IMG/VR virus record: IMGVR_UViG_3300037140_000053
Coordinates: 1-23,657 of that record
Reading direction: 5' to 3' (one strand)
Length of the DNA: 23,657 nt
Source: a virus
Part shown: positions 2,204 through 21,848 of the stretch, in pieces
Layout of the letters: each line of letters begins with the position of its first letter
Numbering within the stretch: position 1 is the first letter of the stretch
Notes under the pieces: model-generated
Databases searched by the model: none
The model's input: only the letters and a program-made list of their open reading frames with translations
Told to the model about the DNA's origin: nothing
Program-made: the position numbers and the translations under genes

Positions 2204-2213
2204 CGCTGACGAG

Positions 2214-2220
2214 CCTCCTT
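2214..2220 (-). promoter_or_regulatory. Strong ribosome binding site of the capsid gene
   Basis: AAGGAGG on the minus strand lies 10 nt before the capsid ATG at 2203. It fixes that start. Most other genes here rely on stop/start overlap instead of a clear Shine-Dalgarno site, so this independent strong site fits a protein needed in hundreds of copies. Confidence 0.85.
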
Positions 2221-2234
2221 CGGAGTCATGGTTG

Positions 2235-3452: not shown

Positions 3453-3463
3453 CGCCGCCTAAC

Positions 3464-3480
3464 AGTTCCGCGGCGGAACT
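3464..3480. repeat. Short inverted repeat after a zinc-protein stop codon
   Basis: AGTTCCG-CGG-CGGAACT, with perfect 7-bp arms and a 3-nt loop. It overlaps the stop codon of the upstream small gene and sits 12 bp before the protease TTG start. As RNA it would form a compact hairpin in the only non-coding gap between those genes. A near-identical palindrome lies at 15212-15229. There is no following T-run, so translation control, RNA processing or protein binding are as likely as termination. Confidence 0.6.
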
Positions 3481-3679
3481 AATCGTCGTCGTCGGTGAGG
3501 CCGGCGTCGTCGTCGAGCGAGTCCGGGTTCTCCGTGCAGGCGGCGTGAACTAGGTAGCCGCTCTCAAGCGCTACCGGGTCGCCTGCCTTGATCGGGTTGT
3601 CGCAGGCGTCGCAGGTGCCAGCGCGGTCAGCTGTGAACGTGCGCCGTGTGCGAGGTCGGCCCAACGTATCTCGCCTCAC
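3479..3679 (-). CDS. 66-residue CxxC/HxxxC zinc-binding mini-protein
   Basis: It starts at a GTG that overlaps the stop of the preceding gene by 4 bp (GTGA); a longer frame upstream is a shadow. A basic N-terminus (RRDTLGRPRTRRTF) leads into GTCDACDNPIKAGDPVAL and YLVHAACTENP. That is a C-x2-C...H-x3-C arrangement typical of a small treble-clef or zinc-ribbon fold, here about residues 23-49. The tail is acidic (DDDAGLTDDDD). Two other proteins in the window (6252-6812 and 17026-17358) carry the same layout. Its place among head genes suggests a structural or assembly partner, but no function can be assigned. Confidence 0.78.
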   Translation of the reverse strand: MRRDTLGRPRTRRTFTADRAGTCDACDNPIKAGDPVALESGYLVHAACTENPDSLDDDAGLTDDDD

Positions 3680-5970: not shown

Positions 5971-6255
5971 CTATGCGACCTCCTGCCACTCGATTCGGTT
6001 GGCGGCGGAGGCGAGGCGCAGCGGAAACACGTCGCCCGCGTGGCGGTCATAGAAGCCGCGACAGACGGCGTTCCCGGTGGCGCCCAGCGTGGAGTGGCAG
6101 ATGATCGCGCTGTCGGCACGCTTCGCCTGCTGCACCATCCCGCGCAGGCGCCCGGCGCGAAGGTCCATGAGGTTCCCGGGCCTGAACACGCAGGTCGCGC
6201 ACATGGCGTCAGCGACGTGGACCTTGCCGTCGCGGAAGGCGTCGTGTGCGCTCAT
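5971..6255 (-). CDS. Conserved actinophage CATC/CRGF protein
   Basis: A 94-residue protein with spaced cysteines: MCATCVFRPGNLMDLR, DSAIICHSTLG and NAVCRGFYDRH. I recall this CxxC...C...C family as a frequent small protein of actinobacterial phages, without an established function. The four cysteines could hold zinc or an iron-sulphur cluster. It is coupled to the upstream DUF6011-like gene by ATGA. The short spacing to the portal suggests it is co-expressed with the head operon although it need not be structural. Confidence 0.85.
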   Translation of the reverse strand: MSAHDAFRDGKVHVADAMCATCVFRPGNLMDLRAGRLRGMVQQAKRADSAIICHSTLGATGNAVCRGFYDRHAGDVFPLRLASAANRIEWQEVA

Positions 6256-6812
6256 GCGAACGACTTCCTACATACGGGGCCGATGCCGCGCTCCACCGAC
6301 TCGGCGGCCTTGAGATGGCGGCCACACACGATGCAGCGCCCGTAGCGGATGGTGAGCGCCTTGGCCTTGTCGAGCGGCATCTTGTCGGCAGGGTCGAGCT
6401 TGTAGATGGCGCCGGACTCGTACTCGAACTCGATCTGCGCGCGGGGCTGTGCGACGCAGGTGCCGTCGCAGAACACAGTCTCGCCCATGTGGGCGCCGTC
6501 CGGCGACTCATGGCCTTCGCACTCACCGGCCTCAGTCGAGCGGTCGGCGTTGATCTCGATGAGCCGCTTCGCGTACAGGCGCGTCTTTTCGCGGTTGAAC
6601 TTGACGACGTAGATGCCGTCCGCGTTCTCGTAGACACCGGGCTCGGTGACGCCGACCGTCTTAGGCGCGGGCGCCGGGTTGGCGAGCGTCGGCGAGGGCG
6701 GGCAGGCCAGGTGCGTGGTCGCCACGCCCTTTGCCCAGAGGATCTGCTCGCCCGCCTCGAAGCGGCCGTGGCAGATCCCGCAGGTTCCGGGGAACTTCGC
6801 GGTGATCGTCAT
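6252..6812 (-). CDS. DUF6011-like double zinc-finger protein
   Basis: This 186-residue protein has two Cys-rich modules. The first, residues about 11-36, is CGICHGRFEAGEQI...THLAC, the C-x2-C...H-x2-C layout seen in two other small proteins here. The last 30 residues, RCIVCGRHLKAAESVERGIG followed by PVC, match the DUF6011 pattern (C-x2-CGR-x-L...S-x4-GIGP-x-C) found in many actinophages. Between them lies a region with CDGTC and an acidic FEYESG stretch. Nucleic-acid or protein binding is plausible, but no reaction can be named. It overlaps both neighbours by 4 bp. Confidence 0.85.
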   Translation of the reverse strand: MTITAKFPGTCGICHGRFEAGEQILWAKGVATTHLACPPSPTLANPAPAPKTVGVTEPGVYENADGIYVVKFNREKTRLYAKRLIEINADRSTEAGECEGHESPDGAHMGETVFCDGTCVAQPRAQIEFEYESGAIYKLDPADKMPLDKAKALTIRYGRCIVCGRHLKAAESVERGIGPVCRKSFA

Positions 6813-7332: not shown

Positions 7333-10014
7333 CTAAAGAAGCTCGATTCGGTAGTCCTCGACGTCGATCGACTCGCCGACCGCCTGCTTCGCCGCGTTCA
7401 ATGCCATCGCCAGCGCGACCGCGGCGTCGATCGGCTCCTTCGACCGTGGCTGCTCGATGCGCCAGCGCGTCCCGTAGTACGTCACCTTCGGGACAGCGGC
7501 GAGCACCTGCTCCGTCACCTGGCTCGAGCCGTCATGGTCGATCTCGTGCTGGGCGATCAGTTCGCCGAGCAGCATCGACGCGGCCTCCATCGGGACACCC
7601 TGGCCGTGGTCGATCACCGTCATGCCGTAGTCCTCTTCCATCTGCTCCGCGATCAGGCCACCGCCCATGTTGCGGTCGAACACGACGGTCATTCCAGGCC
7701 AGCGAGCTCGCATCACTTCGAGGACGTCGAAGACGACCCGCAGCCGGCGTTTCGTGCCCTGCTCTTCGGACTTGAGGATCACGCCTCCGGCGGTGCGCGG
7801 GCGGTGCGACGACGGGTCGATCCACACCGGGATCACGGCGGTCGTGTCGAAGGAGGTTGCGGTGTCAAGGCCGACGAAGACGTGCTGCGCGCCGGTCGGG
7901 ATCACGATGCCGTCAACTTCGCCCTGGTTCCAGTCGTAGCGCGAGAACGCGGAGTCCATCTGGTTGACCCAATGGTTCATGTGCTGGCGGGCGAACACCC
8001 ACGGCTCAGCCTGCGACGCCTTGTAGGAGCGGCGGAGGTTCTCGGGTTTGATGAACGAGCCGGGGTTGGCTTTCTTGACCTTGAGGATGAAGGCGTCAAG
8101 CTCTTCCCTCGAGCAGTTGCTGGCGGGCATCTGCACTTCGTCGGGGACAGCCCAGCGGTGCATGACGAGATCCCCATCGGCGTCGACGGCGCGGGTGTAG
8201 TCGCCGTGCTCTTCGATCACCGAGTCGGCGCGCAGCGCGCGCGTCACCATCCGGCCGAGCGTGCTGTCGAGCGAGTCGCCGGCGGTCGTGACATGCACGA
8301 TCCTCACGCGGTGCTTGCCGACGGTGCGCTTCTGCACCTTCGTCGTCAGTGTGCGCACCGCGGCGCCGTCGTCTTCGTGGCGGTGGAGTTCTTCGACGAG
8401 CACCAGGCTTGGCGCCTCACCTTCCTGCCCGGAGCCGCCGCGTCCGCCGACTCGACGCCCGGCCGAGCTCACTACCAGGAGGCCGTAGCTGTCCTCTTTG
8501 ATCAGGCTCTTGATGCGGCCCATCCCGTACTCCTGGGCGACCCACCACCGGGACAGCGACGGCGACTGTGCGATGAAGTGGGCGGCGGCGTTGAGCGTGT
8601 GCTTGCCGTGGCCGCCCATGCCGCCGAGGATGATCACCTTCGGGTTGATGCGGACGAAGGTGCCGTGGTGGAGCGCGAGCGCGCCGAGCAGCGTGGAGTT
8701 GTGTGTGACCAGGCCGCCGGTGACGTGGCTCTCGGTGCCTGCGACCTGAATCGCGATCGTCGACTGCTTGCCGAGTGGGCGGATCGCTTTGACGCGGTCG
8801 AGCTCGAGCGACCCTGACGTGTTGTGATCACCCAACTCGATCAGCGCAAGCATCCACGCTTTCAACGTCGCGGCCTTCGTTGCGTGGGTGAGCTTGAGCA
8901 TCTGCCCTAGCCGAAGGATCTGCTGCGCATCCCCAACCCACAGGCGCCACGAATGGTGGACCTGGCCTTTGTAGGTGCCGCGCTTGGCGGCAATCGAAGC
9001 GTTGACGCCCAAGCCCGCCAGAAGATGCTGGCATTCGACGAGAAGCTCACGATTGACCGAATACCACTCGATCATCCGGTCATGGAGGCGGCCCCGATCG
9101 GGCGAATACAACCCACCATCCGTGTCGAGGTAGCCGCTCAAGAACTGGGCTTGCGCTTCCCTGGACGCCATGAACACCCAGCCAGGCACGCGCTTGGTGT
9201 AGCTCGTTTTGCCGAGCAGACCGCAGTCCTTCACGAACGAGCGCGGCCCGCCGGTGTGCTTGCCCTTGTTGGGGTTGCTCAGTCGCCAGCCCCATTTGCC
9301 CACCGGTGAAACGGGCCATGTTTCGGCAACCCTCGCCACGACCTCCGCACTGTCAGACGTGAGCGTGCAGTTGCCGGACGACAGGCTGCCATCGCCGACA
9401 AGCACCCCGGCCAGCCAAGCACGTTCGCATTCGGCTTCGGTTGCCGCTTTGCCCGGTGCGAAGCCGAGCCCTACGACAACGTAGTCGCCGGCACCGAGAC
9501 GTCCCGCTGGCGTCCAGGCGTACCGGCGTGGCTGCCGACTCGGTCGCTGCCCGGCGCGCGGCAGGGTCAGAACCGGATGGTTCGTGGTGCAGCGCAGGAT
9601 GCGTCCTCGAACAGTCTCCACTTCGACGCACGCTTGCGGCGCCTGTTCCTCAACCGCGAGCACTTCGGACGGGGCGAGGCCATAGCCACCCCACCCGAGC
9701 ACCCGATTGCCGGGAGCGATCTCGTCAGCCCGCCGTCTCCCGCCGTCAGCCAGGGCGACCATCGTGTCCGGTGCTAGGCACTTGCCCAAGCCTGTCGGCC
9801 ACAGCCACAGGTGCTCGAGCGCTCCGTGCTCGAAGTAGTCCCGGAGCGCGTCGCATTGCCAGTCCTCGAGGCGGAACGGCTGAAGCGTATCCGGCAGCTT
9901 CAGCTGGAAACAGAACCTCTCGAAGTGGTCGAGCGTGTCTTTCTCAGACGAGCGCTCGGGCTGGCTAAAGCCCCTCGAACTCTGCCGTTTCAGGGTCGCT
10001 GAGTGGCGGGCCAT
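7333..10014 (-). CDS. Large terminase subunit with in-frame intein
   Basis: The DNA-packaging motor: ATPase plus nuclease. The precursor is 893 residues; removing the 361-residue intein leaves 532, normal for this family. Walker A is split: WPTGLGK (72-78) sits before the intein and STLLGALALHH after it. Walker B is SLVLVEELH (536-543 region). The RNaseH-like nuclease shows the three expected acidic positions: VGLDTA (Asp717), VVFDRN (Asp780) and EPIDAAVALA (Asp863). The start at 10014 overlaps the small terminase by 50 bp; no later canonical start precedes the ATPase. The C-terminus ends one base before a 26-residue membrane peptide gene. Without splicing the ATPase could not work. Confidence 0.95.
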   Translation of the reverse strand: MARHSATLKRQSSRGFSQPERSSEKDTLDHFERFCFQLKLPDTLQPFRLEDWQCDALRDYFEHGALEHLWLWPTGLGKCLAPDTMVALADGGRRRADEIAPGNRVLGWGGYGLAPSEVLAVEEQAPQACVEVETVRGRILRCTTNHPVLTLPRAGQRPSRQPRRYAWTPAGRLGAGDYVVVGLGFAPGKAATEAECERAWLAGVLVGDGSLSSGNCTLTSDSAEVVARVAETWPVSPVGKWGWRLSNPNKGKHTGGPRSFVKDCGLLGKTSYTKRVPGWVFMASREAQAQFLSGYLDTDGGLYSPDRGRLHDRMIEWYSVNRELLVECQHLLAGLGVNASIAAKRGTYKGQVHHSWRLWVGDAQQILRLGQMLKLTHATKAATLKAWMLALIELGDHNTSGSLELDRVKAIRPLGKQSTIAIQVAGTESHVTGGLVTHNSTLLGALALHHGTFVRINPKVIILGGMGGHGKHTLNAAAHFIAQSPSLSRWWVAQEYGMGRIKSLIKEDSYGLLVVSSAGRRVGGRGGSGQEGEAPSLVLVEELHRHEDDGAAVRTLTTKVQKRTVGKHRVRIVHVTTAGDSLDSTLGRMVTRALRADSVIEEHGDYTRAVDADGDLVMHRWAVPDEVQMPASNCSREELDAFILKVKKANPGSFIKPENLRRSYKASQAEPWVFARQHMNHWVNQMDSAFSRYDWNQGEVDGIVIPTGAQHVFVGLDTATSFDTTAVIPVWIDPSSHRPRTAGGVILKSEEQGTKRRLRVVFDVLEVMRARWPGMTVVFDRNMGGGLIAEQMEEDYGMTVIDHGQGVPMEAASMLLGELIAQHEIDHDGSSQVTEQVLAAVPKVTYYGTRWRIEQPRSKEPIDAAVALAMALNAAKQAVGESIDVEDYRIELL
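8698..9780 (-). mobile_element. LAGLIDADG intein in the terminase Walker A motif
   Basis: Residues 79-439 of the terminase precursor form a full-length intein. It begins CLAPDTMVALADG (Cys1), has block B TTNHPVL, and ends VTGGLVTHN followed by Ser of the extein. His-Asn and +1 Ser are thus the expected splicing residues. The inserted endonuclease shows both LAGLIDADG helices: LAGVLVGDG (intein residues 123-131) and LSGYLDTDG (215-223). All splicing and nuclease blocks look intact. Insertion lies between the catalytic Lys and the Ser of Walker A, a highly conserved site that protects the element from precise loss. Confidence 0.93.
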
Positions 10015-10339
10015 CGGGCAGGTCTAGAGCCGACCGTGGCCCGTAGCGTTCGGGGTACAGGCGCTCGAGCAGCCAGGTGGCGGCCCGCCAGTTGCCTTTG
10101 CCCGCATTGGTGACACGACTTAGGAGGATAGCCTCGCCTTCGGCCTGTGCCCGGCGACACTCGTCGTCGAACAGCGCGTAGCCACGGACCTTCAGCTGCG
10201 AGCGGTTGCGCCAGACGCGCACGTCGACGTCCTCGACGCCGACCAGCCGGGCTGCGGTGTCGAGCGGCACGCCGCCGCGCAAGAAGTCCAGCAGTCGCCG
10301 GCGCCGATCCGACGTGAGCGCCGGCGTTACGGAACCCAT
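9965..10339 (-). CDS. Small terminase subunit (HTH)
   Basis: A 124-residue protein starting MGSVTPALTSDRRRRLLDF. A longer frame reaches 10456 but overlaps the upstream gene and is rejected. The N-terminal half carries a helix-turn-helix (LRGGVPLDTAARLVGVEDVD, then VRVWRNRS); the second half has helices with NWRAATWLLERLYPERYG, a pattern common in small terminases. It should recognise phage DNA and hand it to the large subunit, which starts inside its 3' end. The overlap with the glycosyltransferase-like gene upstream is 13 bp. The HTH and position are the evidence. Confidence 0.82.
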   Translation of the reverse strand: MGSVTPALTSDRRRRLLDFLRGGVPLDTAARLVGVEDVDVRVWRNRSQLKVRGYALFDDECRRAQAEGEAILLSRVTNAGKGNWRAATWLLERLYPERYGPRSALDLPDGPPLSDPETAEFEGL

Positions 10340-10911
10340 GTGGGCGACGTCCGGCGGGTGCTCATACCCGGATAGCAGAGGCTGGGCCCGTCCCGGTGCT
10401 GCACCAGGCTGGGGATGACGGTGAAGTACGGGCGGTCGATGTCTTTGAGCCAGCATTGCATCGCGTAGTCGCAGCCACGGCGCTCGCGCACGCCGTCGGG
10501 CAGGACTCGCAGCTTCGTCCCGTCAGCGGTGGGATTCCAGTTGCGTGAGAACTCGAGCAGCGCCGGCGCCATCGCACCGGGCAGAAAGAAGCACTGAGCC
10601 ATCAGGAACGTGCCGGGCGCGCGCATCCTCGACTCCTTGAACCGATGGCCGTCATAGCCCTGGATCAGCGTGCCCGGCGCCAGGAACCTTGCGGCGCGCG
10701 CTTTGCGCTCAAAGTCGCTGGTCAGGATCACATCGTCCTCGAAGTGCCAGGCGTCGTCGTCGCCCTGGGCCTCGAGCGCGTCAAGGTAGGTGATCCACCC
10801 GTCGCGTTCGCGGTCGTCGATCAGCTCCGAGCCGGGTAGCTGCGCCTGTAGTTCGAGCGCCCAGCCGTGGCGGAGCTCGTGCCAAGACGTCGTGCGGATC
10901 AGGTAGCGCAT
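10327..10911 (-). CDS. Glycosyltransferase-like protein (GT-A fold, DxD-type motif)
   Basis: A 194-residue protein starting MRYLIRTTSWHELRHG. WHFEDDVILTSDF (56-67) holds an EDDV motif like the metal and sugar-nucleotide binding DxD of GT25-type glycosyltransferases. A later GCDYAMQCWLKD and IPSLVQHRDGPS (167-177) match the C-terminal PSLVQH pattern of the group. The start overlaps the upstream methyltransferase stop by 1 bp; the frame upstream of it is a shadow. Substrate is unknown: sugar transfer to a modified DNA base, a capsid protein or a host surface are all possible. Its coupling to methyltransferase and oxygenase-like genes favours DNA. Confidence 0.78.
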   Translation of the reverse strand: MRYLIRTTSWHELRHGWALELQAQLPGSELIDDRERDGWITYLDALEAQGDDDAWHFEDDVILTSDFERKARAARFLAPGTLIQGYDGHRFKESRMRAPGTFLMAQCFFLPGAMAPALLEFSRNWNPTADGTKLRVLPDGVRERRGCDYAMQCWLKDIDRPYFTVIPSLVQHRDGPSLCYPGMSTRRTSPTWVP

Positions 10912-11504
10912 CAGCCTTCGAGCATCGTACGGATGCGGGCGGCGCGTCGCGGGTTGTGGTCGTTCCCGTAGAAGGCGAGCTTCAGCTTGAGCGCGGCTGC
11001 GGCCTGGTAGACGTTGGTGCAGCAGGGGTCGAGCAGGATCTGGCCCGGCTCCGACACCGAGCCGATGCAGCCGCGAGGCTGGCGGCTCCCACCATGCAGC
11101 CACAGCTCGTCAGGGCGCCACACACGGCGCACGGCCTTGCGGGTGTGGCCGACCATCAGCTTCGCCGGCCTCTGGCTTCTGACGGGCCCGTAGGTGGTCG
11201 AGACGAGCGTCACGTCCTTGCACACGGCGCTGAGTCTGGCAGCGGCGGCGTCAGCGGTCGCCTCACCGCACTCGATGAACACCCACCCGTCAACGTGGTC
11301 GGCGACGATGCCGCAGATCGACTCGAAGAACGCGGCGAAGCTGTGGCGCTGGCCCATCGCCATCATCACATGCGCGTCGTCCCAGGGAGGGCTCGAGTAG
11401 AGAATGTCCGCCCTGACGCCGTGGAGCATCGCGTTGATCGGCGCGTCACCGATCCGCCCCACAGTGAAGCGGTGCTGCGGAATCAGGATCTCGGCGGTCG
11501 TCAT
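10911..11504 (-). CDS. SPPW-type DNA methyltransferase
   Basis: This 197-residue protein shows motif IV (ADILYSSPPWDD, about residues 32-43) before a SAM-binding motif I near the C-terminus (GQILLDPCCTNVYQAAAALK, then FYGNDHN). This order is that of beta-class amino-methyltransferases, and SPPW suggests N4-cytosine rather than N6-adenine methylation. Motif I lacks the usual FxGxG glycines (DPCCTNVYQ), so SAM binding may be altered. It has no separate target-recognition domain. The ATG overlaps the IbrB-like stop (ATGA). A paired ParB-type protein and methyltransferase are a frequent phage combination. Target sequence cannot be inferred. Confidence 0.83.
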   Translation of the reverse strand: MTTAEILIPQHRFTVGRIGDAPINAMLHGVRADILYSSPPWDDAHVMMAMGQRHSFAAFFESICGIVADHVDGWVFIECGEATADAAAARLSAVCKDVTLVSTTYGPVRSQRPAKLMVGHTRKAVRRVWRPDELWLHGGSRQPRGCIGSVSEPGQILLDPCCTNVYQAAAALKLKLAFYGNDHNPRRAARIRTMLEG

Positions 11505-12130
11505 ACGGGCGCGTCTTCGCCGGGGTGCTCAGCCAGCCACGCGCGCTTGATGTCGATCTGGCCGCGTGTCGCCCACGCCTTGCGGTACTCAACGTCCTCG
11601 AACAGCTTGGAGAACCCGGAGACGTGCTTCAGCCGGAGCAGCTCGTCAGCGCTCATTCCAAGCTCGTGGCAGATCCGCTCATCGCCCCAGCCCTTGTCGA
11701 GCATCTCGAACACGATGCCGGACATGTTCCCCACCGAGTGCTTGCCGCGAGCGCGGTTGTGGCGCACCGTGGAGGCCATCCGCTCGTTGGGCGGCTTGTC
11801 GATCACGACGATCGGCAGCAGGCCGCCGGTCATCTCGCGGATGTCGTCGTTCTCGACCATCACGCGCCAGCGGTGGAAGCCGTCGACGATCACGTAGTCG
11901 TCGCCGTCTTTGACCGTGACGACCGGCTGGGTGTAACCGTCGGCCTTAATGCTCACGTAGAGCAGGCGCATCTCGACGGAGGCGACGCGGTTCGGATTGT
12001 ACGAATTGCTCCGAACCTGCTCAACCGGAACCCATTGCACATTCGCCACCGGCTGCCGCAGGTGTGGGGCGTCGGCGCCGTTCTCGGATGCGCTTGGCGA
12101 GTGCGAGGTCGGCAGCGCTGGATAGCTCAC
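11501..12130 (-). CDS. IbrB-like ParB/Srx-fold protein
   Basis: A 209-residue protein with a GTG start overlapping the IbrA-like stop (GTGA). A 30-residue, low-complexity N-terminus precedes the ParB-type N domain: VQWVPVEQVRSNSYNPN (31-47), YTQPVVTV and the box YVIVDGFHRWRVM (79-91), then an HTH-like C-terminal half (ERICHELGMSADELLRLKHV). The N domain binds a nucleotide in ParB relatives. The direct pairing with a DUF3440 PAPS-reductase-type gene is the IbrA/IbrB arrangement known from E. coli and phages, where IbrAB affect expression of immunoglobulin-binding proteins; their biochemistry is unclear. Here a regulatory or modification-targeting role is possible. Confidence 0.82.
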   Translation of the reverse strand: MSYPALPTSHSPSASENGADAPHLRQPVANVQWVPVEQVRSNSYNPNRVASVEMRLLYVSIKADGYTQPVVTVKDGDDYVIVDGFHRWRVMVENDDIREMTGGLLPIVVIDKPPNERMASTVRHNRARGKHSVGNMSGIVFEMLDKGWGDERICHELGMSADELLRLKHVSGFSKLFEDVEYRKAWATRGQIDIKRAWLAEHPGEDAPV

Positions 12131-13341
12131 GAGTAGGGCATCTTCGGGACAGGCGGGGACGGAGGCAGCGGTGGCAGGTTCTTCGCCCCGCCAATGCTCT
12201 TGAGGTAGTCGGCCTGGGCTGCGCGGAAGTTCACGTTGAAAGCGTTGTGGGCGAGGCTCTTACCTTCGACGTCGTTGAGCATGATGACGCGACAGTGGGC
12301 TTTCCAGGCGAAGTCCGCCCACAGGCCCGGCGGCGTGCGCCGGTCCATCCGCGCGAACAGGTGCGCCATGTAAGCCTGGTGCTCCGGGTCGACCAGGTGC
12401 TTCAGCAGGTGATCCCGGTACTCGCGCCAGCTCTCAAACATGAACGGCAGGTCGTGGACGAAGTATTCGAGCCCGAGCATCGCCGCCATGTGCGTGCCCT
12501 CCATCCGGCAGATCAGGCGCTCGAAGGTGTCGGGCTCAACCTCCTGCAAGAAGAACAGCTCCGCGACGGCGTTCTCGTGTGTGAGATTCGAGACGCGCAT
12601 CGTCAGCGGATGGCCGCCGCGCTGCCACAGCTGGTCGTAGAGCTTCGCGTACGGCCAGCCGTGCTCGTGAATGCACTTCCAGACGTCGAGGTAGGTCCAG
12701 TCGTAGAGCGGATAGAGCACCGTTTGGTTCGGGTGGCCGGCGGGCGCGCGGCCGCCCCAGGTGATCCACTTGTACGACGCCGCGTGGGTCGTGCCCATGA
12801 AGCGCGTCCGCGCCTCTTCAGCCCGGACGCCGGACAGCGCCACGCATTTCTCGTCGCCGAACCGGGCGTGCAGGATCTCCGCGAACAGCTCGTAGAAGCG
12901 GTCGGTGCCAAAGGTGTTGACGGTGATCGCCTTGGGGTGGCGCGGATGCACGTACAGATCCTCTTTGCCGACCTCCCACGCGTTCAGCCAGTGAGAGGTC
13001 GTCGAGGTTGCGTTGAAGATCCGGAACGGGCATTGCAGCAGCCAGGGGTCGACCTCCGGGCGGTCCATCCACTCGTAGATCAGATCGACGACGGACTGCC
13101 ACTCCGCCTCCTGGTCAAGCCAGTAGACGCTGACCGGCAGGTAGCCGCCGGCGCGCGCGGCTTCGAGGCTCAGCTCGAGCAGCACCAGGCTGTCCTTGCC
13201 GCCGCTGACGTTGACCATGACGCGGCCCTCGAACTCGTCGAAGATCCACTTGATGCGAGCGCGCGCGGCCTCGAGCGTCGTCTGCTTGCTCAGGATGCGC
13301 AGGCCGCGGTGCGACGGTTGGGCGATCGTCTTCGAGGCCAT
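12127..13341 (-). CDS. IbrA-like PAPS-reductase-family protein (DUF3440)
   Basis: The 404-residue protein has an adenine-nucleotide alpha-hydrolase P-loop, VNVSGGKDSLVLLEL (44-58), as in PAPS reductase, DndC and IbrA. Further family features are VYWLDQEAEWQ, a region LSGVRAEEARTRF, and LYPLYDWTYLDVW; the last third resembles the DUF3440 extension. The SGGKDS box means it can probably activate a substrate with ATP; a true PAPS reductase Cys-Gly-x-x-Cys end is not visible. It overlaps both neighbours. Partnership with the IbrB-like gene is strong context. Sulphur transfer, as with DndC in phosphorothioation, is only a hypothesis since DndD/E-like partners are absent. Confidence 0.85.
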   Translation of the reverse strand: MASKTIAQPSHRGLRILSKQTTLEAARARIKWIFDEFEGRVMVNVSGGKDSLVLLELSLEAARAGGYLPVSVYWLDQEAEWQSVVDLIYEWMDRPEVDPWLLQCPFRIFNATSTTSHWLNAWEVGKEDLYVHPRHPKAITVNTFGTDRFYELFAEILHARFGDEKCVALSGVRAEEARTRFMGTTHAASYKWITWGGRAPAGHPNQTVLYPLYDWTYLDVWKCIHEHGWPYAKLYDQLWQRGGHPLTMRVSNLTHENAVAELFFLQEVEPDTFERLICRMEGTHMAAMLGLEYFVHDLPFMFESWREYRDHLLKHLVDPEHQAYMAHLFARMDRRTPPGLWADFAWKAHCRVIMLNDVEGKSLAHNAFNVNFRAAQADYLKSIGGAKNLPPLPPSPPVPKMPYS

Positions 13342-13544
13342 CAGTTCGGCGAGTCGTGGATCGGGACGGCCATCTGCCCGGCCTCAACCGCAGCCTGGGC
13401 GACGCCGGAGAGGTAGCCGGCGGCGAGGTAGAACTGGTCGATGAAGCTGAGGTTCGCGGTGTCCGTCTCGCTCATGCCGCAGCGGTGCGCGGAGGCGATG
13501 ACGACCTCAGCGACTTCCCTGCGGACGCGCAGCGTGCGGCTCAT
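13341..13544 (-). CDS. 67-residue hypothetical protein
   Basis: Starts MSRTLRVRREVAEVVIASAH and has a mostly helical pattern (IDQFYLAAGYLSGVAQAAVE). Its ATG overlaps the oxygenase-like stop (ATGA) and its stop shares a base with the IbrA-like ATG (TGATG). The position between an oxygenase and an ATP-using enzyme suggests a small accessory subunit or merely a passenger. I do not recognise it. Confidence 0.72.
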   Translation of the reverse strand: MSRTLRVRREVAEVVIASAHRCGMSETDTANLSFIDQFYLAAGYLSGVAQAAVEAGQMAVPIHDSPN

Positions 13545-14065
13545 GGCATCGCGAAGCTGGGCAGGTGCGCGATCAGCGCATCCAGCGCGGCGTCGAGGTC
13601 GGGCGGGTAGTCCTCGAAGTCGATGGCAGCGGCGACCTTCGTCGGCCCGGTGAACGGCAGGCGCGGGTCTTTCGTGACCGTGTGCGGCGAGTGGGTGTCG
13701 AGGACGGTGACGAGGCCAGGCACGTACATCGGTTTGCCCGCCGGGTTCTCATCGACGCCGTGGCACCACCAGCCCTCATTGTGCAGCTCGAGATGGACCG
13801 AGTACCGGGCGAAGCCGACGTCAGTGTGGAAGCCGATCCCGCCGCGCGTGCAGATGAAGTGCGGCCCCAGCTTGTCGCCGGGCGGGTGGCCCCACGTCTT
13901 GAACCGGCGGCTGGTCTTCTCGTCACCCCAAAAGCGGCGGGTCCAGTCGGCGGGGAAGTGCGGGAGCGGCGAGCCGGGCATCCCAGGCTGGCCGAGGTAG
14001 CCGACCAGCGCGACCGGGTTCGCCGTCTGATCCAGCGCGAGCGGTGTGCCGCGTTTCCAGTCCAT
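13541..14065 (-). CDS. 2OG-Fe(II) oxygenase-like protein
   Basis: A 174-residue protein with a plausible metal triad of the double-stranded beta-helix fold: GIGFHTDVGF gives His80-x-Asp82, and THSPHTVTKDPRLP gives His128 with nearby basic residues Lys132 and Arg135 for 2-oxoglutarate. The spacing of 46 residues between HxD and the distal His is normal. Strand-like segments (ARYSVHLELHN, VPGLVTVLDTH, KVAAAIDFE) fit. An earlier in-frame GTG at 14077 exists, but the ATG at 14065 forms the usual TGATG overlap. Phage oxygenases of this class include TET/JBP enzymes that oxidise methylcytosine; membership is not proven here. Confidence 0.68.
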   Translation of the reverse strand: MDWKRGTPLALDQTANPVALVGYLGQPGMPGSPLPHFPADWTRRFWGDEKTSRRFKTWGHPPGDKLGPHFICTRGGIGFHTDVGFARYSVHLELHNEGWWCHGVDENPAGKPMYVPGLVTVLDTHSPHTVTKDPRLPFTGPTKVAAAIDFEDYPPDLDAALDALIAHLPSFAMP

Positions 14066-14466
14066 CAGGCCACCCACTCCATGATCGACGGATCGCGGGC
14101 GACGACGAGCGGATCGTCGGGGCGGAGCGGCGGGCTTACTTCGTTGCTGGCGCGGTTGACCATGCCCCGCTCAGCGGCCGGGAAGTAGGACTTGGAGATC
14201 CAGTAGCGGAAGCCGTCCACGTCGAGGTAGACGTACTCGACGTTGAGGAACTTGCCCCGGTAGCCGTGGTTGTCGATCAGGGCGGCGAAGCGGTCGAAGC
14301 CGGCGCGGAGTGTGGCGTCGAGGTTGCTGCGCGGCTGGTACTCGTGCGGTGAGTGGGGCGCTCCCCTTGGCGGCTTGAAGCGGCAGGCGCCGACGAAGCT
14401 GCGAGCGAACTCGAGGTACTCGTCGGGGATCTCAGTGGGCTCGTCAATGAGGATGGTGCGGGCCAT
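14065..14466 (-). CDS. Hypothetical protein, first gene behind P3
   Basis: A 133-residue protein starting MARTILIDEPTEIPDEYLEF. The region KFLNVEYVYLDVDGFRYWIS (about 72-91) is the most conserved-looking part, followed by AAERGMVNRA. I recall a similar Val/Asp-Gly-x-x-Tyr-Trp...Asn-Arg-Ala pattern in small actinophage proteins of unknown function. It directly follows the P3 promoter and leader and couples to the oxygenase-like gene (TGATG), so it heads the modification-like operon. Confidence 0.76.
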   Translation of the reverse strand: MARTILIDEPTEIPDEYLEFARSFVGACRFKPPRGAPHSPHEYQPRSNLDATLRAGFDRFAALIDNHGYRGKFLNVEYVYLDVDGFRYWISKSYFPAAERGMVNRASNEVSPPLRPDDPLVVARDPSIMEWVA

Positions 14467-14508
14467 GTGCGCTGCTTTCTGCTAGCGGGCGGGTAGACCC
14501 TCAGTATA
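14467..14508 (-). promoter_or_regulatory. P3: promoter/leader of the accessory enzyme operon
   Basis: On the minus strand TATACT (14503-14508) is followed 19 bp later by AGCAGAAAGCAGCGC before the ATG at 14466. P4 has the same TATACTG-to-AGCAGA spacing and P2 a very similar one. No convincing -35 box is visible, and the -10 lies only 4 bp before the end of the upstream ParB-like gene. No operator motif is present here, unlike at P2 and P4. Confidence 0.6.
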
Positions 14509-14511
14509 CCT

Positions 14512-15072
14512 TCAGGCGGGGTCGCCGGCGCTCACGTCGACCACAAAATCGTGCCCACAATCCGGGCATGCGACGTGAAACACGTTGTCGTCATAGCTGC
14601 CCCTGAAGCCATCAGCGGCGCCACGCGCGCCAAGCGAGCTCGGAGCGGCACTCCCACCTTCAGGCGGGAAGGCTGCGCTTAGAGCGGCTCCTGTGTCCTG
14701 AGAGCGCAGGCGCTCGAGCGCGTCGTAATCGACGGTGGCGAGGCCGGCCACCGGGTCAAGGCTGGCGAGCACGAGGTTCTCTTCGTCCTCAGTCAGCTCG
14801 ACGTAGCTGACGGGCACCGAGGGCTCGCCCTTCGAGATCGACATGGCGACGCGCAGGTGGCCGTCGACGACGTAGCCGGTGGTCTTGTTCACGATCACGT
14901 CCTGGACCCATCCGATGTGGTCGAGGATGGAGCCGAGCGCTTCCTGCTGGTGCAGCGGGTGGATGCGCCAGTTCTTCGGGTTGGCGAGTAGCTGCTCCGG
15001 GTTTTCGACGCCGGTGCCGATGATGCGGTTCGCCCAGCCCACCATCTCAGGCGTGTCCGTCTTAGCGGTCAT
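14512..15072 (-). CDS. ParB/Srx-fold protein with C-terminal CxxCG, paralogue 1
   Basis: A 186-residue protein starting MTAKTDTPEM; a longer frame upstream overlaps the paralogue and is unlikely. The core runs VGWANRIIGTG, NPKNWRIHP, GWVQDVIVNKTTGYVVDGHL and RVAMSISKGE, where VDGHLRVA (69-76) is the ParB-box equivalent of GERR. LDPVAGLATVD follows. After a low-complexity linker the end has HVACPDCGHDFVV (Cys169, Cys172), half a zinc ribbon, so metal binding may need dimers. It may bind DNA, or hydrolyse nucleotides or DNA as some ParB-domain proteins do. The paralogue at 15089-15661 lies 16 bp upstream. Confidence 0.84.
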   Translation of the reverse strand: MTAKTDTPEMVGWANRIIGTGVENPEQLLANPKNWRIHPLHQQEALGSILDHIGWVQDVIVNKTTGYVVDGHLRVAMSISKGEPSVPVSYVELTEDEENLVLASLDPVAGLATVDYDALERLRSQDTGAALSAAFPPEGGSAAPSSLGARGAADGFRGSYDDNVFHVACPDCGHDFVVDVSAGDPA

Positions 15073-15088
15073 CCGTTCACCATAGCGA

Positions 15089-15661
15089 TCACTTGGCGAA
15101 CTCGAACTCGGACCCACACTCAGGGCACGTCGCCGGATGCGACACGATCCCACGACCCGCGAACTGGCTGTCCAGCTCGCCCTGGCGCCGGTCGATCTGC
15201 TCCTGCGTCGGAGTTCCGCCAGCGGAACTCTGCTTGCCCATCCCGGTCAAGCCGCGCAGCAGCTCGAGCACGCTCTTCTGCTCCGGATGCTCCACCTGCA
15301 CAGTCGACGCGAGCGCCATCAGCGCCGCCGAGTCAGTGGCCGCCAACGCACCGATCGGATCGAGGTTCTCGAGGACCACCCGTTCCTCAGCCTCAGAGAG
15401 CTCGACGAACACAACCGGCACCGCAGCCTCGCCGCGAGCCACAGCCAAAGCGACTCTCAGGTGCCCATCAACCAGGTGACCCGTCGTCCGGTTCACGATC
15501 ACGCTCCGAACCCAGCCCACACGGTCAAGAAGCTCCGCCATCACCCGCTGCTGGCCCTGATCGTGCAGCCGCCAGTTGTCCGGATGCTCGAGCAGCCCTG
15601 CCGGATCCGCCTCACCGTAGCCGGCGATCCTGTTCGTCCATCCGTCCACCCGACTTGACAT
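15089..15661 (-). CDS. ParB/Srx-fold protein with C-terminal CxxCG, paralogue 2
   Basis: A 190-residue protein starting MSSRVDGWTNRIAGYG. It aligns along its whole length with the next gene: NWRLHDQGQQ, GWVRSVIVNRTTGHLVDGHL, RVALAVARGE, LDPIGALAATD and a final ATCPECGSEFEFAK (Cys179, Cys182). The pair clearly arose by duplication. The chosen start matches where homology begins; ATG or GTG codons further upstream would add 19 or fewer unrelated residues. The first gene after the 400-bp gap, it needs a promoter there, possibly TATACA at 15754-15759. Function beyond the ParB-type fold is unknown. Confidence 0.83.
   Translation of the reverse strand: MSSRVDGWTNRIAGYGEADPAGLLEHPDNWRLHDQGQQRVMAELLDRVGWVRSVIVNRTTGHLVDGHLRVALAVARGEAAVPVVFVELSEAEERVVLENLDPIGALAATDSAALMALASTVQVEHPEQKSVLELLRGLTGMGKQSSAGGTPTQEQIDRRQGELDSQFAGRGIVSHPATCPECGSEFEFAK
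15212..15229. repeat. Palindrome AGTTCCGC-CA-GCGGAACT
   Basis: Perfect 8-bp arms with a 2-bp centre, inside the coding region of ParB paralogue 2 (it encodes part of KQSSAGGTP, a linker). It shares 7-bp arms with the inverted repeat at 3464-3480. Lying in a linker, it is free of strong protein constraint and could be a binding site, for instance for a ParB-type protein, but two copies may be chance. Confidence 0.5.
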
Positions 15662-16064
15662 TGGGCTGATCGTAGCGGTCGAAACGGCGCAATTTTCCAT
15701 TTTGAGATTTTTTCTCACGGTGCAGCTTGTCGGGGCTGACGTAATCCACAGTGTGTATACGACCTCCCCCCTCTATCGCGAGGCGGTTCAGCGAGGGCGT
15801 GGCGACGAGCACTCTCGTTCGTTTGCTTGTTTTTATGGGCGACGTCGGTTTGGCTGTGGTGCTGTGCGGCGGGTGTTCAGCGCGAAGCGGTGTTAGATCC
15901 GCAGCGTTTCGCTTGGCTGTGTTTCTGGTCGTGCTTTGTGGTTGTGGTTGCGTTTCGTGGTTCGGTCGCTTGGCTGCTTGCCTGGCTGCTCGCTTGTCTG
16001 CTCGTGCGCGCGCACATATACAAACACAATCAAGTCAGTGTTTTATCGAGGATCAGTTGGGTCG
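15662..16064. other. Intergenic stretch without a convincing gene
   Basis: Nothing coding is convincing in these about 400 bp between the HNH-kinase gene and ParB paralogue 2. Plus-strand frames of 157 and 109 residues exist, but read as Cys/Trp/Val-rich low complexity and would be the only plus-strand genes. The stretch holds the A-free block described separately, a short TGAGA/TCTCA hairpin near 15705-15719, and a minus-strand TATACACACTG (from 15759) that could be a -10 element for the ParB genes, without a visible -35. It probably carries termination and initiation signals. Confidence 0.55.
15904..16013 (-). promoter_or_regulatory. 110-bp U-free transcript segment, possible Rho utilisation region
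   Basis: The plus strand has no A in 110 consecutive bases, so a minus-strand transcript would have no U. It lies 50-160 nt after the stop of the HNH-kinase gene. The half nearer 15904 is rich in C and A and poor in G (for example GCAACCACAACCACAAAGC), which resembles the unstructured C-rich sequence used by Rho. The other half repeats AGCAGCCA- and CAAGC-type words. Rho-dependent termination is the best guess; antitermination or an origin-like role cannot be excluded. Confidence 0.45.
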
Positions 16065-16940
16065 TCAGAACAACTGGCGATCAGCGATCGTCGTCACAAG
16101 CGGTTGTGATCGTGGTGTTCTCGTGTTCGTGCGGATCACAGGATCTTGGGATCTAGCGGTTCGTGCAGGCAGGCGATCACAGACAGCCTCGTATACGGCG
16201 GCCTCTGAGAGGCGGTCTGTGTGAAGGCGGATATCGACCTCTTGGTGTTCGACGAGATCGTTGATTCGCGTCCAGTCGCGATCCGCCATATCGCAGCCTC
16301 TGAGACGAGCTACAGGCAGCGATCCGTGCAGGCAAACCACCAGAGTCGACTTGGCGGCGTTTTCGAGCTGCTCAACGACGAAAGGCCACTTTGGGGACGT
16401 TCCTGTGGACTCGATCGTCAGATCGCCGGTTTGGAGAATCGCGGTTCCCTGAGAAGCCATCTGAGCCCAAACCAGCGGCGAGAACTTCGACACGGACCCT
16501 GTGATCGCGATCCTCAGCTTGTCGGCTTCGAGACGGTGAAAACCGAGATCCTGCTCGAGGCGTTTCGCCAGAGACGTCTTTCCGGCTCCTGGCGTTCCCT
16601 GAAGGACGACCAGATCGCCGGCGCGTTTGCGGCGGGTCGCATACGGGTCTGTGGCGACGTCGCAGTCCTCACAGAGCGTTCGGCCGTTCTCGGGGTCGTA
16701 GGCGGCGGGATCTCCTGCGGCGAAGTCTCTGAGCGGCTTTATGTGGGCGGCGACCAGATCGACCTGGCTGGCGCCGCATCTGACGCACTGGTAGCGGTCG
16801 CGTTTGAGGACGTCGAGGCGGAACTGCTTTTGGGCGCCACGGTCGCGGTTTGGCGATCTGTGGGCGTTCGGGTTCGGCTTGTGTTCGGCGCAGTAGCGCT
16901 CCGGGCCGATCACGCCGCAGGTGGCGCAGGTGTACCTCAC
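16065..16940 (-). CDS. HNH endonuclease fused to a P-loop kinase domain
   Basis: A 291-residue protein starting at GTG, overlapping the small membrane peptide stop (GTGA); the longer upstream frame is a shadow. Residues 1-20 hold CATC and CAEH, a possible zinc site. Residues 40-95 form an HNH fold: YQCVRCGAS, AAHIKP (His66), PENGRTLCEDC (Asn85, Cys90, Cys93). Where HNH nucleases usually have a final His after CxxC, this has Asp94. After a basic linker comes LQGTPGAGKTSLAKRL (Walker A 115-122) and LEADKLR, as in small AAA_33 or polynucleotide-kinase-like proteins. The C-terminal 50 residues are variable. Reading is continuous, so the fusion is real in this sequence; joint function is unknown. 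Confidence 0.82.
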   Translation of the reverse strand: MRYTCATCGVIGPERYCAEHKPNPNAHRSPNRDRGAQKQFRLDVLKRDRYQCVRCGASQVDLVAAHIKPLRDFAAGDPAAYDPENGRTLCEDCDVATDPYATRRKRAGDLVVLQGTPGAGKTSLAKRLEQDLGFHRLEADKLRIAITGSVSKFSPLVWAQMASQGTAILQTGDLTIESTGTSPKWPFVVEQLENAAKSTLVVCLHGSLPVARLRGCDMADRDWTRINDLVEHQEVDIRLHTDRLSEAAVYEAVCDRLPARTARSQDPVIRTNTRTPRSQPLVTTIADRQLF

Positions 16941-17029
16941 GACGGATTCCAGGCCATCAGGATCGCGCCGAGCCCGATGTAGAGCGCGAAGATCAGCCAG
17001 CCGACCAGGTTCTTGTCGAGCGGGCTCAT
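16937..17029 (-). CDS. 30-residue single-span membrane peptide
   Basis: A micro-ORF with an ATG overlapping the upstream stop (ATGA) and a TGA overlapping the next GTG (GTGA). It begins MSPLDKNLVGWLIFALYIGL and ends LMAWNPS; residues 8-27 make one hydrophobic helix. Like the peptides at 4266-4340 and 7251-7331, it is inserted in an operon with no spare bases. Its codon frame is supported by both couplings. Function unknown. Confidence 0.7.
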   Translation of the reverse strand: MSPLDKNLVGWLIFALYIGLGAILMAWNPS

Positions 17030-17358
17030 GGGCGGACTCCACTTGACGCGGGCGGGTTTGGCGGCTTGTTCGTCCGGTCGTGCGGGTTGATGCCGTACGG
17101 ACCTTCTGGCGGCTCGATATCGCCGGCGCCGCGCATCAGGACAACCGGCATTCCGTCAGGAGGGCTCTCGGCGAGGATCCGGTTATCGAGGGCTGCCTGG
17201 CGGAGCACCGCGGCCATCTGCGCGTCTTCGATGACATCAGCTTCCTGGTAGCAGCGGATATGGAACCACTCGCCTAGAGCGCTCGTGACCTGTCCAGCTT
17301 CGATCGTCGTGTGGCAGAGCGCGCACGTCTTGACGCCTTGGGACATGAAGCTGCTCAT
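17026..17358 (-). CDS. CxxC/HxxC zinc-binding small protein
   Basis: A 110-residue protein starting MSSFMSQGVKTCALCHTTIE. CALCHTTIEAGQ and GEWFHIRCYQEA form a C-x2-C...H-x2-C site within residues 12-36, closely parallel to the N-terminal module of 6252-6812 and to 3479-3679. A helical region (DAQMAAVLRQAALDNRIL) and a Pro/Asn-rich tail (PHDRTNKPPNPPAS) follow. The ATG overlaps the preceding stop (ATGA); Met5 is an alternative start. Such modules usually mediate protein contacts or nucleic-acid binding. Confidence 0.8.
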   Translation of the reverse strand: MSSFMSQGVKTCALCHTTIEAGQVTSALGEWFHIRCYQEADVIEDAQMAAVLRQAALDNRILAESPPDGMPVVLMRGAGDIEPPEGPYGINPHDRTNKPPNPPASSGVRP

Positions 17359-17603
17359 CCGAGGATCTTCGCGGCGCCGGAGGCGAGCTCGACGATATCG
17401 GCCTCTGGATCACCGATCACGCCCTGGCTGTGCGGCCGGAGCAGCTGACAGTCGATTTCGCGGTCGATCGACTGTGCGATCGCTTCGACGTCACCGGAGT
17501 CCAGCGGCTCGAACAGGTCGTTGGGGAAGTTGATCTCGAGGTCGCCGAGTGACGCTTTGACGATCTTCGCGGCTCGGGCGGAGAGGACCAGGATCACGGA
17601 CAT
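17355..17603 (-). CDS. 82-residue hypothetical protein with strong RBS
   Basis: Starts MSVILVLSARAAKIVKASLG. AAAGGAG lies 7 nt before the ATG, which decides this start over a longer upstream frame that would run into the lysozyme gene. The protein has mixed alpha/beta character (FEPLDSGDVEAIAQSIDREI) and an acidic middle. It follows the lysozyme-like gene by 37 bp and couples to the zinc protein by ATGA. Family not recognised. Confidence 0.75.
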   Translation of the reverse strand: MSVILVLSARAAKIVKASLGDLEINFPNDLFEPLDSGDVEAIAQSIDREIDCQLLRPHSQGVIGDPEADIVELASGAAKILG

Positions 17604-18408: not shown

Positions 18409-18669
18409 TCAGGTGAGCTCGCGCTCGAGGTCATAGCTGTAGACGATCGTGTCGGCGTCAGCCATCGACTTCGCCATCGCGCGCTTGTAGACGCACTGAC
18501 CAGGCCACGGCGGAACGTCAGGTTCAGGCTCGAGCACGCGCATCCACTGGCGGCCGTGACGGGCGGGTTTGACCGGTGCGACGTGGATGCGGTAGTCCGG
18601 CTCGATCGTGGTGCCGTAGGACCAGTCTTTCGCCGGCCCGTCGTTGATCACGACCTCGAACCACGTCAC
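18409..18669 (-). CDS. 86-residue hypothetical protein
   Basis: The GTG start overlaps the methyltransferase stop (GTGA). It reads MTWFEVVINDGPAKDWSYGT and later QWMRVLEPEPDVPPWPGQCV, then a helix KRAMAKSMADADTIVYSYDL. The beginning and end look like strands of one small alpha/beta domain. Not recognised; coupling suggests co-expression with the methyltransferase. Confidence 0.72.
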   Translation of the reverse strand: MTWFEVVINDGPAKDWSYGTTIEPDYRIHVAPVKPARHGRQWMRVLEPEPDVPPWPGQCVYKRAMAKSMADADTIVYSYDLERELT

Positions 18670-19286
18670 GACGCGAACACTCCGTAGAACGCGCGTCCGT
18701 AGCAGCCGTTGATGCCGTCGAGGACGATCGTCCGTCCTTTGCCTTCACCTAGCCAGTCGATCAGCTGCTCGGATCTGAGGCTGTGCGGATGGCCTTCGTA
18801 GGCGGGCATGTCGATCCACTCGAAGATGCGAACCTGGCGTGCTTCGCGCCTGGCGGTTGCGATCACCTGCTCCGGGTCGACGACGTGCTGAAGGACGTTG
18901 TAGATCCACGCTTCGTCGAAAGCGGGTCCAGCGGATCCGACGACTCGGGACACGAAGCGCTCAGCGGGACAGCGGTCGTAGAGGATGCTGTTGAGCTGGT
19001 AGCGGTCGATCGCCCACTTCGGGATCTTCAGCGGGTCAGCGACTGTGGAGGGTCCGCGGTTGATGCACTTGAGCAGGATCGAGGCTGGTCCGCCGCCGAT
19101 GTCGAGGACGGACTTGTGGCCGAGGTCATAGACGGGGTAGTGGTCGGCGCGCATCGCGGCGAGGCCCATCAGCTCTGCGTAGGTCAGCTGCTTGGTTTCT
19201 TCGCCGTACGTGTTGAGGCAGTCGCCATGGAACCCAGCCTCGAAGCGCTGGGCGGCCTGCCACTCGTCGTTGCTGACTGCGGTCAT
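18666..19286 (-). CDS. Class I SAM-dependent methyltransferase
   Basis: A 206-residue protein with SAM motif I KSVLDIGGGPASILLKC (58-74), then ADPLKIPKWAIDRY as the acidic second strand region and FDEAWIYNVLQHVVDPEQVI as motif IV. The NVLQHVxDP pattern is typical of small-molecule or sugar methyltransferases (Methyltransf_11 or 23 type) rather than DNA methylases. The substrate is unknown. The ATG overlaps the HNH gene stop (ATGA). A longer N-terminal segment with HGDCLNTYGEE resembles phage-associated members whose neighbours are glycan genes, though none is adjacent here. Confidence 0.84.
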   Translation of the reverse strand: MTAVSNDEWQAAQRFEAGFHGDCLNTYGEETKQLTYAELMGLAAMRADHYPVYDLGHKSVLDIGGGPASILLKCINRGPSTVADPLKIPKWAIDRYQLNSILYDRCPAERFVSRVVGSAGPAFDEAWIYNVLQHVVDPEQVIATARREARQVRIFEWIDMPAYEGHPHSLRSEQLIDWLGEGKGRTIVLDGINGCYGRAFYGVFAS

Positions 19287-21075: not shown

Positions 21076-21621
21076 CTAGACGACCGGCGGCACGTAGAGG
21101 ATCGCCTGGCGGAACGCGGCCAGCGCCTCTTTGCCCTGCACAGCGAACATGATCGTCTTGAGGCTCGAGCGTCCTTCGGTGACGGTGCCGAGCCAGAACT
21201 GCACGACGTCGAGCATCGTGCGAGCGCAGGCGTCAACCGGGTACTCGCCGATACCGGCACCGAACGCGACGAAGGCCAGCGACTCAACGTCCTGCATCCC
21301 CTCAGCGGTCATCATCGTGGCGATCGTGGCTTTGACCACCGCGTCGGTTGTGACCTTGCCGCCTAGCTCCATCGTGACGGCGTGGAGTACCCACTTGCAC
21401 GGCAGGTTGCCGGCGTCAGTGGCGAGCACGGAGCCGATCGGCAGCGGACCACCGAACGCCTCAACGCACTCATCGCTCATCACGGTGACGACGGGCCCGC
21501 CTGCTTGTGCAATCGCGCGCGCCACACCGCCAGCGTGCTTGAGGCGGGTGTTCGCGGAGTTGACGATCGCGTCGACCTCGAGCTGGGTGACGTCGGCTTC
21601 GATGGCGAGTAGCTGGGTCAT
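21076..21621 (-). CDS. Macro-domain (ADP-ribose-binding) protein
   Basis: A 181-residue protein starting MTQLLAIEADVTQLEVDAIV. VNSANTRLKHAGGVARAI (20-37) is the classic ADP-ribose binding loop with the NxAN motif, and FGAGIGEYP (120-128) is the second phosphate loop. Family members bind or hydrolyse ADP-ribose, ADP-ribosyl-proteins or related nucleotides; in phages a role in countering NAD-based or ADP-ribosylating defence is an attractive inference. The ATG overlaps the upstream stop (ATGA); the 90-residue longer frame is a shadow. It sits with the DNA ligase in the first block. Confidence 0.9.
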   Translation of the reverse strand: MTQLLAIEADVTQLEVDAIVNSANTRLKHAGGVARAIAQAGGPVVTVMSDECVEAFGGPLPIGSVLATDAGNLPCKWVLHAVTMELGGKVTTDAVVKATIATMMTAEGMQDVESLAFVAFGAGIGEYPVDACARTMLDVVQFWLGTVTEGRSSLKTIMFAVQGKEALAAFRQAILYVPPVV

Positions 21622-21848
21622 ATCCAGTCGATCTTCGCACGCGGAGCCGGACCCCACTCGACGCGGACGGAAGCGACAAGCAGGTTGACGATCACGCAGC
21701 CGCGAGCACGACTGAGGTTGCCGGCCTGAAAGCCGACCTCCCATTGCCATCCGCCGCCGAACCGGCCCATCCGCTCCGACGGCGGGCGGTGGCGGAAGCC
21801 GACCTTGACGCGGCCGACCTGCCAGTCGCGGCGCCACCGGAAGATCAT
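21618..21848 (-). CDS. Small conserved-looking GRFGGGW protein
   Basis: A 76-residue basic protein. The core GRFGGGWQWEVGFQAG is followed by RGCVIVNLLVASVRVEW, a pattern I recall from small actinophage proteins without known function. It starts MIFRWRRDWQVGRVKVGF. Both ends are coupled by 4-bp overlaps, to the following macro-domain gene and the preceding 75-residue gene, which supports it strongly as a gene. Confidence 0.8.
   Translation of the reverse strand: MIFRWRRDWQVGRVKVGFRHRPPSERMGRFGGGWQWEVGFQAGNLSRARGCVIVNLLVASVRVEWGPAPRAKIDWI

Follow-up and report, generated by a model that had tools for sequence, protein, structure and literature searches.

IbrA, a protein of the PAPS-reductase family, and IbrB, a ParB-type protein, are encoded by adjacent genes in prophages of the P-Eib type and, putatively, in the Flavobacterium phages FCL-2 and 23T. 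Pairs of this kind are common in phages and prophages, where annotation usually files them, wrongly, under sulphur metabolism and plasmid partition. PMC4490671 assigns them a role in co-activating the expression of prophage genes. Here we analyzed the virus record IMGVR_UViG_3300037140_000053, a linear fragment whose entire 23,657 bases (G+C content of 66%) are hereafter called the window. The same two families lie side by side in this record but, in contrast to the P-Eib-type pairs, they make up the core of a more extensive cassette that also encodes ParB-like proteins, a "PHxY" domain and tailoring enzymes: an oxygenase-like protein (Ox), an amino-methyltransferase-like protein (MT) and a glycosyltransferase-like protein (GT). 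The window is one copy of a conserved, modular and co-inherited phage cassette. We give a probability of roughly 0.6 to the explanation that this cassette serves to modify nucleic acid; its most likely substrate would be the DNA of the phage itself, between replication and packaging.

Distribution and modularity of the cassette

Scans of IMG/VR with the single sequences of Ox, GT and MT gave no matches, and profiles were required. Using iterated profiles, the cassette was found in well over 100 uncultivated phages, usually in the order ParB, PHxY domain, tailoring gene(s), IbrA, IbrB and terminase. An IbrB profile retrieved 189 relatives, of which 80 loci were kept and 45 distinct complete loci were counted. 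Scans with Ox alone and with the methylase alone were chosen so as not to select on IbrB, and the Ox and MT loci were dereplicated at 70% identity. Family labels were assigned with profiles built on these same loci; remote members may escape, and absences are lower bounds. Among the 59 loci selected with Ox, 58 carry ibrA, 55 ibrB, 54 GT and one MT; in their 35 divergent clusters, the corresponding numbers are 34, 33, 34 and 1, with ParB in 32. The 80 loci selected with the methylase, which bears a DPPW motif, carry ibrA in 72 cases, ibrB in 69, GT in two and Ox in one (ibrA in 46 and ibrB in 45 of 52 divergent clusters). All 45 complete loci selected with IbrB contain ibrB and ParB, the parB2 family being present in 45/45, and 33 encode the PHxY domain. 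Since three independent scans of IMG/VR agree, the association of these genes is far beyond chance. A comparison of gene order across related phages, a check named in the initial annotation of the window, showed that the order recurs in unrelated phages, which supports the view of a dedicated multi-enzyme modification operon around IbrA/IbrB. For example, most cassette genes of a marine contig (L005) encode proteins with 27-63% identity to those of the window. It carries homologues of the 133-aa PHxY protein, GT and Ox, IbrA, IbrB and a further GT-like protein, as well as two ParB-like proteins and the small (TerS) and large (TerL) terminase subunits.

Within the 45 loci selected with IbrB, MT is present without GT or Ox in 16, GT without MT in 18, and both in four, a negative association between MT and GT (Fisher p = 8e-4). 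The methylase is an alternative tail and not a regular partner of Ox and GT; it is accompanied by GT in 2/52 and by Ox in 1/52 divergent methylase clusters. The window is a rare composite of the GT+Ox and methylase tails. A similar composite MT-Ox-GT cassette (L136) has intact MT motifs and an interrupted ibrA, the broken frame (2100-3644) reflecting a sequencing error or decay. In a phylogeny of 130 IbrA sequences, obtained by a short search that makes exact change counts rough, the MT/GT label changes 30 times, and the well-supported branches force at least 17 changes per label. The alternative tails have therefore been swapped many times along the IbrA tree. The label is also somewhat clustered, with fewer changes than in shuffles, as expected from inheritance plus frequent exchange. 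Such exchange of finishing enzymes on a fixed core is what an arms race over DNA marks would be expected to produce.

Of 22 GT loci, 11 lack Ox, and of 12 Ox loci, one lacks GT. GT is therefore independent of Ox, unlike the logic in which a TET/JBP enzyme acts before a glycosyltransferase, and the idea that Ox is a simple step before glycosylation was not borne out. As GT is often found without Ox and Ox rarely without GT, the primary product more likely comes from IbrA/IbrB.

Organization of the locus in the window

All genes discussed in the window are on the minus strand. The seven open reading frames (ORFs) between 14466 and 10327 are all open and overlap successively by 1, 4, 1, 4, 4 and 1 bp, in agreement with the gene list and the overlaps first described. 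The operon also leads straight into the terminase genes, as had been stated: GT shares 13 bp with TerS (9965-10339; phrog_4102, 2.9e-16), which in turn shares 50 bp with TerL (7333-10014; TerL_nuclease, Hint and LAGLIDADG_3 matches). The window TerL is split by an intein bearing the Hint and LAGLIDADG modules. In 9 of 10 diverse loci, the next large ORF after the cassette encodes a terminase domain, and several terminase families are represented. The initial annotation also placed a promoter, "P3", ahead of the operon. A consensus scan of positions 9800-17500 found no promoter upstream of the 133-aa gene, the sole consensus promoter-like site falling within the IbrB gene, and thus gave P3 no support.

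Two genes encoding ParB-like proteins precede the seven (15700-14512), at intervals of 16 and 45 nt, and are counted in the set as members of the conserved cassette. Protein A (15089-15700, 203 aa; phrog_498 and phrog_620 matches) and protein B (14512-15072, 186 aa; 40% identity to A) both have a C-terminal zinc ribbon, and phrog_498 is a methylase-associated family. The PHxY domain protein (14065-14466, 133 aa) has 48 relatives within cassette loci, some fused to an S-adenosylmethionine (SAM) methyltransferase, an arrangement also found in phages Hendrix and Rasputia. It had no Pfam match at E<=5, and a fold search gave no significant match to known folds; its profile was too diverse for use in a collection scan. 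For the 67-residue protein (13341-13544), relatives were not found in Pfam, PHROGs or the cassette profiles.

The IbrA/IbrB core

IbrA (12127-13341, 404 aa) matches PAPS_reduct (PF01507, 9e-13), DUF3440 (3e-6) and phrog_2302 (6.5e-70), and IbrB (11501-12130, 209 aa) matches ParB_N (4e-6) and phrog_2159 (1.2e-72). A PP-loop protein with PAPS_reduct and DUF3440 domains thus adjoins a ParB_N protein, with a 4 bp overlap, as expected for an IbrA/IbrB pair and in line with the PAPS-reductase-family protein and ParB-type partner initially recognized. The SGGKDS motif is kept in 217 of 221 IbrA proteins. In contrast, the catalytic ECGxH motif of CysH is found in 0/221 and a CC...CxxC cysteine pattern in none of them; the best cysteine column is 75% conserved. 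Profile comparison placed FAD synthase, PAPS reductases and CysD nearest to IbrA among solved sequences. FAD synthase and CysD carry out AMP transfer.

Judged by these motifs, IbrA is not a PAPS reductase despite its PP-loop domain, since SGGKDS is kept while the CysH cysteine motif is missing. A true PAPS reductase, boosting sulphur assimilation of the host as an auxiliary metabolic gene, would agree with the PF01507 match, with PHROGs, which classes the family under auxiliary metabolism, and with the many virome papers that list phage cysH in this way (e.g. PMC8725595). We rejected this role on the missing cysteines and regard it as very improbable; the nearest solved structures, moreover, include FAD synthase and the CysD adenylyltransferases.

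The DGFHR motif is kept in 222 of 231 IbrB proteins and resembles the box with which sulfiredoxin and SerK bind phosphate. The nucleotides bound by ParB-fold proteins are ATP, CTP or GTP, binding is lost upon R-to-A changes in their box, and fusion to DNA methylases is frequent among the phage members (PMC12704722). Taken with the AMP-transferring relatives of IbrA, the nucleotide-binding fold of IbrB makes a primary step dependent on ATP or another nucleoside triphosphate (NTP) plausible. An "ATP- or sulphur-dependent step" had been envisaged; its sulphur part is unlikely, as none of the 221 IbrA proteins carries either cysteine motif.

Weak matches of IbrA to BrxP (1.6e-4) and DndC (0.003), together with the co-activator role described for the pair, could also indicate that IbrA and IbrB work in regulation, or in a defence or exclusion module of the DndC/BrxP type, the tail genes being unrelated cargo. 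DndC-like cysteine chemistry is not conserved, however, and the tail genes, when searched independently, are almost exclusive to ibrA loci, with overlapping reading frames, which makes such a module improbable.

The tailoring enzymes

Ox (13541-14065, 174 aa) was annotated as resembling 2-oxoglutarate (2OG)-Fe(II) oxygenases. Its AlphaFold model is a double-stranded beta-helix (mean pLDDT 86), and its top VIA-align match is a proline 3-hydroxylase (Z 8.8, rmsd, the root-mean-square deviation, 4.1, 127 aligned residues), followed by a phosphomannose isomerase cupin (Z 8.5, rmsd 3.6, 92 aligned). High-probability Foldseek matches include 2OG hydroxylases. HxD and SPH are kept in 57/57 strong relatives, placing an iron triad on the predicted double-stranded beta-helix. 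The order HxD...SPH is typical of 2OG oxygenases and not of cupin isomerases. H80, D82, Y88, D123 and H128 are invariant and R87 is near-invariant; R87, located near D82, might serve as the 2OG anchor. The predicted structure supports the oxygenase-like fold of the annotation. Ox matched no Pfam family at E<=5, hence no TET/JBP profile, and its profile had no match in the PDB.

A nucleoside-antibiotic hydroxylase is also among the structural matches of Ox, and sets of PP-loop, GT, Ox and methyltransferase enzymes also build nucleoside natural products. The enzymes could then act on free nucleotides or on a soluble compound, in a small-molecule or nucleotide-pool pathway. The ParB-fold zinc-ribbon proteins and the DNA-methylase-type enzyme suggest, on the contrary, a polymer substrate, and a nucleotide-synthesis gene was not seen in the cassette; we consider this pathway quite unlikely.

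GT (10327-10911, 194 aa) weakly matches phrog_854, a glucosyltransferase family (4e-4), and Glyco_transf_25 is detected below the cut-off in 8 of 24 family members. A DXD-like acidic motif, FEDDVIL in the window copy, is kept in 64 of 69 relatives. The window protein has no Pfam match at E<=5, and in the structural check of this protein the profile search of the PDB gave chance matches only. The acidic motif and the phrog_854 match support the GT-A-like glycosyltransferase of the initial annotation as glycosyltransferase-like. In some cassettes, a gene for an NAD epimerase (2e-44) is located between GT and Ox; other extras are a Methyltransf_24/TylF-like enzyme and a GNAT acetyltransferase. 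Together with the two DXD sugar transferases of Rasputia, the epimerase and the TylF-like enzyme support real sugar chemistry.

Capsids of some phages are glycosylated. The presence of GT, the sugar epimerase and the TylF-like methyltransferase in some cassettes, and the location of cassette genes next to terminase and structural genes, could accordingly mean that a virion protein (capsid or tail) is glycosylated or otherwise modified, instead of DNA. This is unlikely in our opinion, because the most constant partners are the ParB-fold proteins and IbrA/IbrB and not GT, because a DNA-methylase-like enzyme replaces GT in many cassettes, and because the minimal ParB-IbrA-IbrB-terminase sets of phages Bernardo and Salgado lack GT.

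MT (10911-11504, 197 aa) reaches only a sub-threshold methylase match in Pfam, and its family profile matches the DNA adenine methylases DpnA, CcrM and MboIIA (4e-6 for the DpnA/CcrM type). At about 195 aa, members would scarcely accommodate an additional domain for target recognition; their motifs are permuted, with motif IV before motif I. Motif IV is DPPW in 81 of 85 relatives and SPPW, as noted initially, in the window. The SAM motif I of the window copy (DPCCTNVYQ, compared with DPCCGMGYT in relatives) qualifies the annotation as a methylase: both glycines of GxG are lost, in this copy alone among 85. It looks degenerate for this reason and may be a decayed or repurposed, perhaps inactive, copy.

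Carriers among isolates and bacterial genomes

IbrA relatives were found in 214 of 50,697 isolate phage records. Mycobacterium phage Bernardo carries ParB, two small genes, IbrA, IbrB and TerL. Arthrobacter phage Salgado carries ParB, IbrA, IbrB, a different methyltransferase, TerS and TerL; this methyltransferase was considered as a window-type MT and rejected, as it belongs to another family. In Hendrix and Rasputia, IbrA is accompanied by a PHxY-methyltransferase fusion, an acyltransferase and GTs. The "methyltransferase" of these two phages (L002 10991-11983 and L003 6693-7688) consists of a PHxY domain and a SAM methyltransferase. Across the 50,697 records, Ox had no match, the DPPW methylase had partial matches only and none full-length, and GT matched Hendrix only (gp154, the nearest isolate relative, with 29% identity to the window protein). 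The scan for the PHxY-methyltransferase fusion gave no match.

No Ox was confirmed in 84,980 bacterial and archaeal genomes, a scan that is not exhaustive since a bacterial-genome contig found via IbrB (L221) carries gt-ox. Cassette extras were present in only about 6 of 80 IbrB loci from bacterial genomes. One of these, from the cultured strain Treponema bryantii B25 (L225, 2286-8785), encodes two GTs plus a methylase ahead of a terminase gene. Many Lachnospiraceae and some Clostridioides difficile (L227-L299) have IbrA/IbrB with no tailoring gene recognised nearby.

Five other minus-strand genes of the window encode a DUF6011 protein (6252-6812), with a C-terminal motif that by eye is similar to that of an ORF near the cassette of the marine contig L005 (4647-5315); an HNH-type domain joined to an AAA_33/zeta-toxin-like P-loop domain (16065-17042); a 206-aa protein with a methyltransferase-like DIGGGPA motif and without Pfam match (18666-19286); a macro-domain protein, possibly ADP-ribose related (21076-21897, 7.7e-23); and an ATP-dependent DNA ligase (22254-23504, 2.5e-23).

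Proposed function

In the proposed explanation, the ParB-like zinc-ribbon proteins would recognise DNA or load onto it. IbrA, as a PP-loop ATPase, and IbrB, as an NTP-binding protein of the ParB/sulfiredoxin fold, would spend nucleotide to install a primary group, GT would add a sugar to this product, and Ox would hydroxylate the product or its sugar. In the alternative tail, the small amino-methyltransferase would methylate the product. The phage of the window has an apparently intact GT+Ox tail beside an apparently decayed methylase tail. The link to DNA is drawn from the MT profile matches to DpnA, CcrM and MboIIA, the ParB matches to phrog_498 and the adjoining terminase in 9 of 10 loci; we infer from the genes both DNA as the target and the order of the steps. 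That the adduct could be, for instance, an amine or an amino acid attached to a base is a guess. More tentatively, the cassette might represent a novel class of post-replicative hypermodification, in which IbrA/IbrB install a new adduct (e.g. a lysidine-like amine or amino acid on a base carbonyl) that is diversified by swappable glycosyl/hydroxyl, methyl or acetyl tails. On this reading, many of the "cysH" genes regarded as auxiliary in phages would encode enzymes of DNA modification.

Several points weigh against a modification of DNA. The steps of the cassette are predicted from its genes, and the literature searched reports no modified nucleoside for any carrier. A role linked to the capsid or to packaging would also agree with the position beside the terminase. 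The identity of GT stands on weak sequence matches, the fold scores of Ox are modest (Z 8.8, against 8.5 for cupin isomerases), and a conserved 2OG-binding Arg/Lys downstream of H128 is absent from the Ox family.

A description of the cassette was not found in the literature searched; a prior prediction (Iyer 2013) is possible. If DNA modification is true, the puzzling IbrA/IbrB pair would be explained, and it would point to an unknown DNA modification that is testable in cultured phages, the cultured carriers including the Microbacterium phages Hendrix, Rasputia, Leaf and Dewdrop as well as Salgado and Bernardo. A class of virome annotations would also be corrected, phage "cysH" often being counted among sulphur-cycling genes.

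Comparison with known modification systems

The hypermodification genes of pelagiphages (PMC9599517) were considered as the same system and rejected, as they are different (thymidylate synthase plus aG/PT-PPlase). The right-end cassette of the Microbacterium phages Hendrix and Rasputia shares the PAPS-reductase-like protein, the PHxY-methyltransferase fusion and GTs with the cassette described here. It differs by the presence of an N-acyltransferase, while Ox, the DPPW methylase and IbrB were not recognised by profiles at these loci.

Phosphorothioation by Dnd, Ssp and BREX type 4 systems shares a PAPS-reductase-family ATPase, a ParB-superfamily partner (DndC/DndB) and DNA as the target. In contrast to these systems, the cassette lacks the conserved cysteine set and carries base- or sugar-tailoring enzymes instead. 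No cysteine desulfurase or DndD/E was recognised among the cassette ORFs examined, no genome-wide search having been made.

In actinophages, DNA is reportedly hypermodified by TET/JBP enzymes together with glycosyltransferases. The cassette shares with this route the co-encoded oxygenase and glycosyltransferase. It differs in that Ox has no Pfam TET/JBP match, GT is often present without Ox, and the IbrA/IbrB core is added, in support of the initial view that its recipe departs from the actinophage TET/JBP route.

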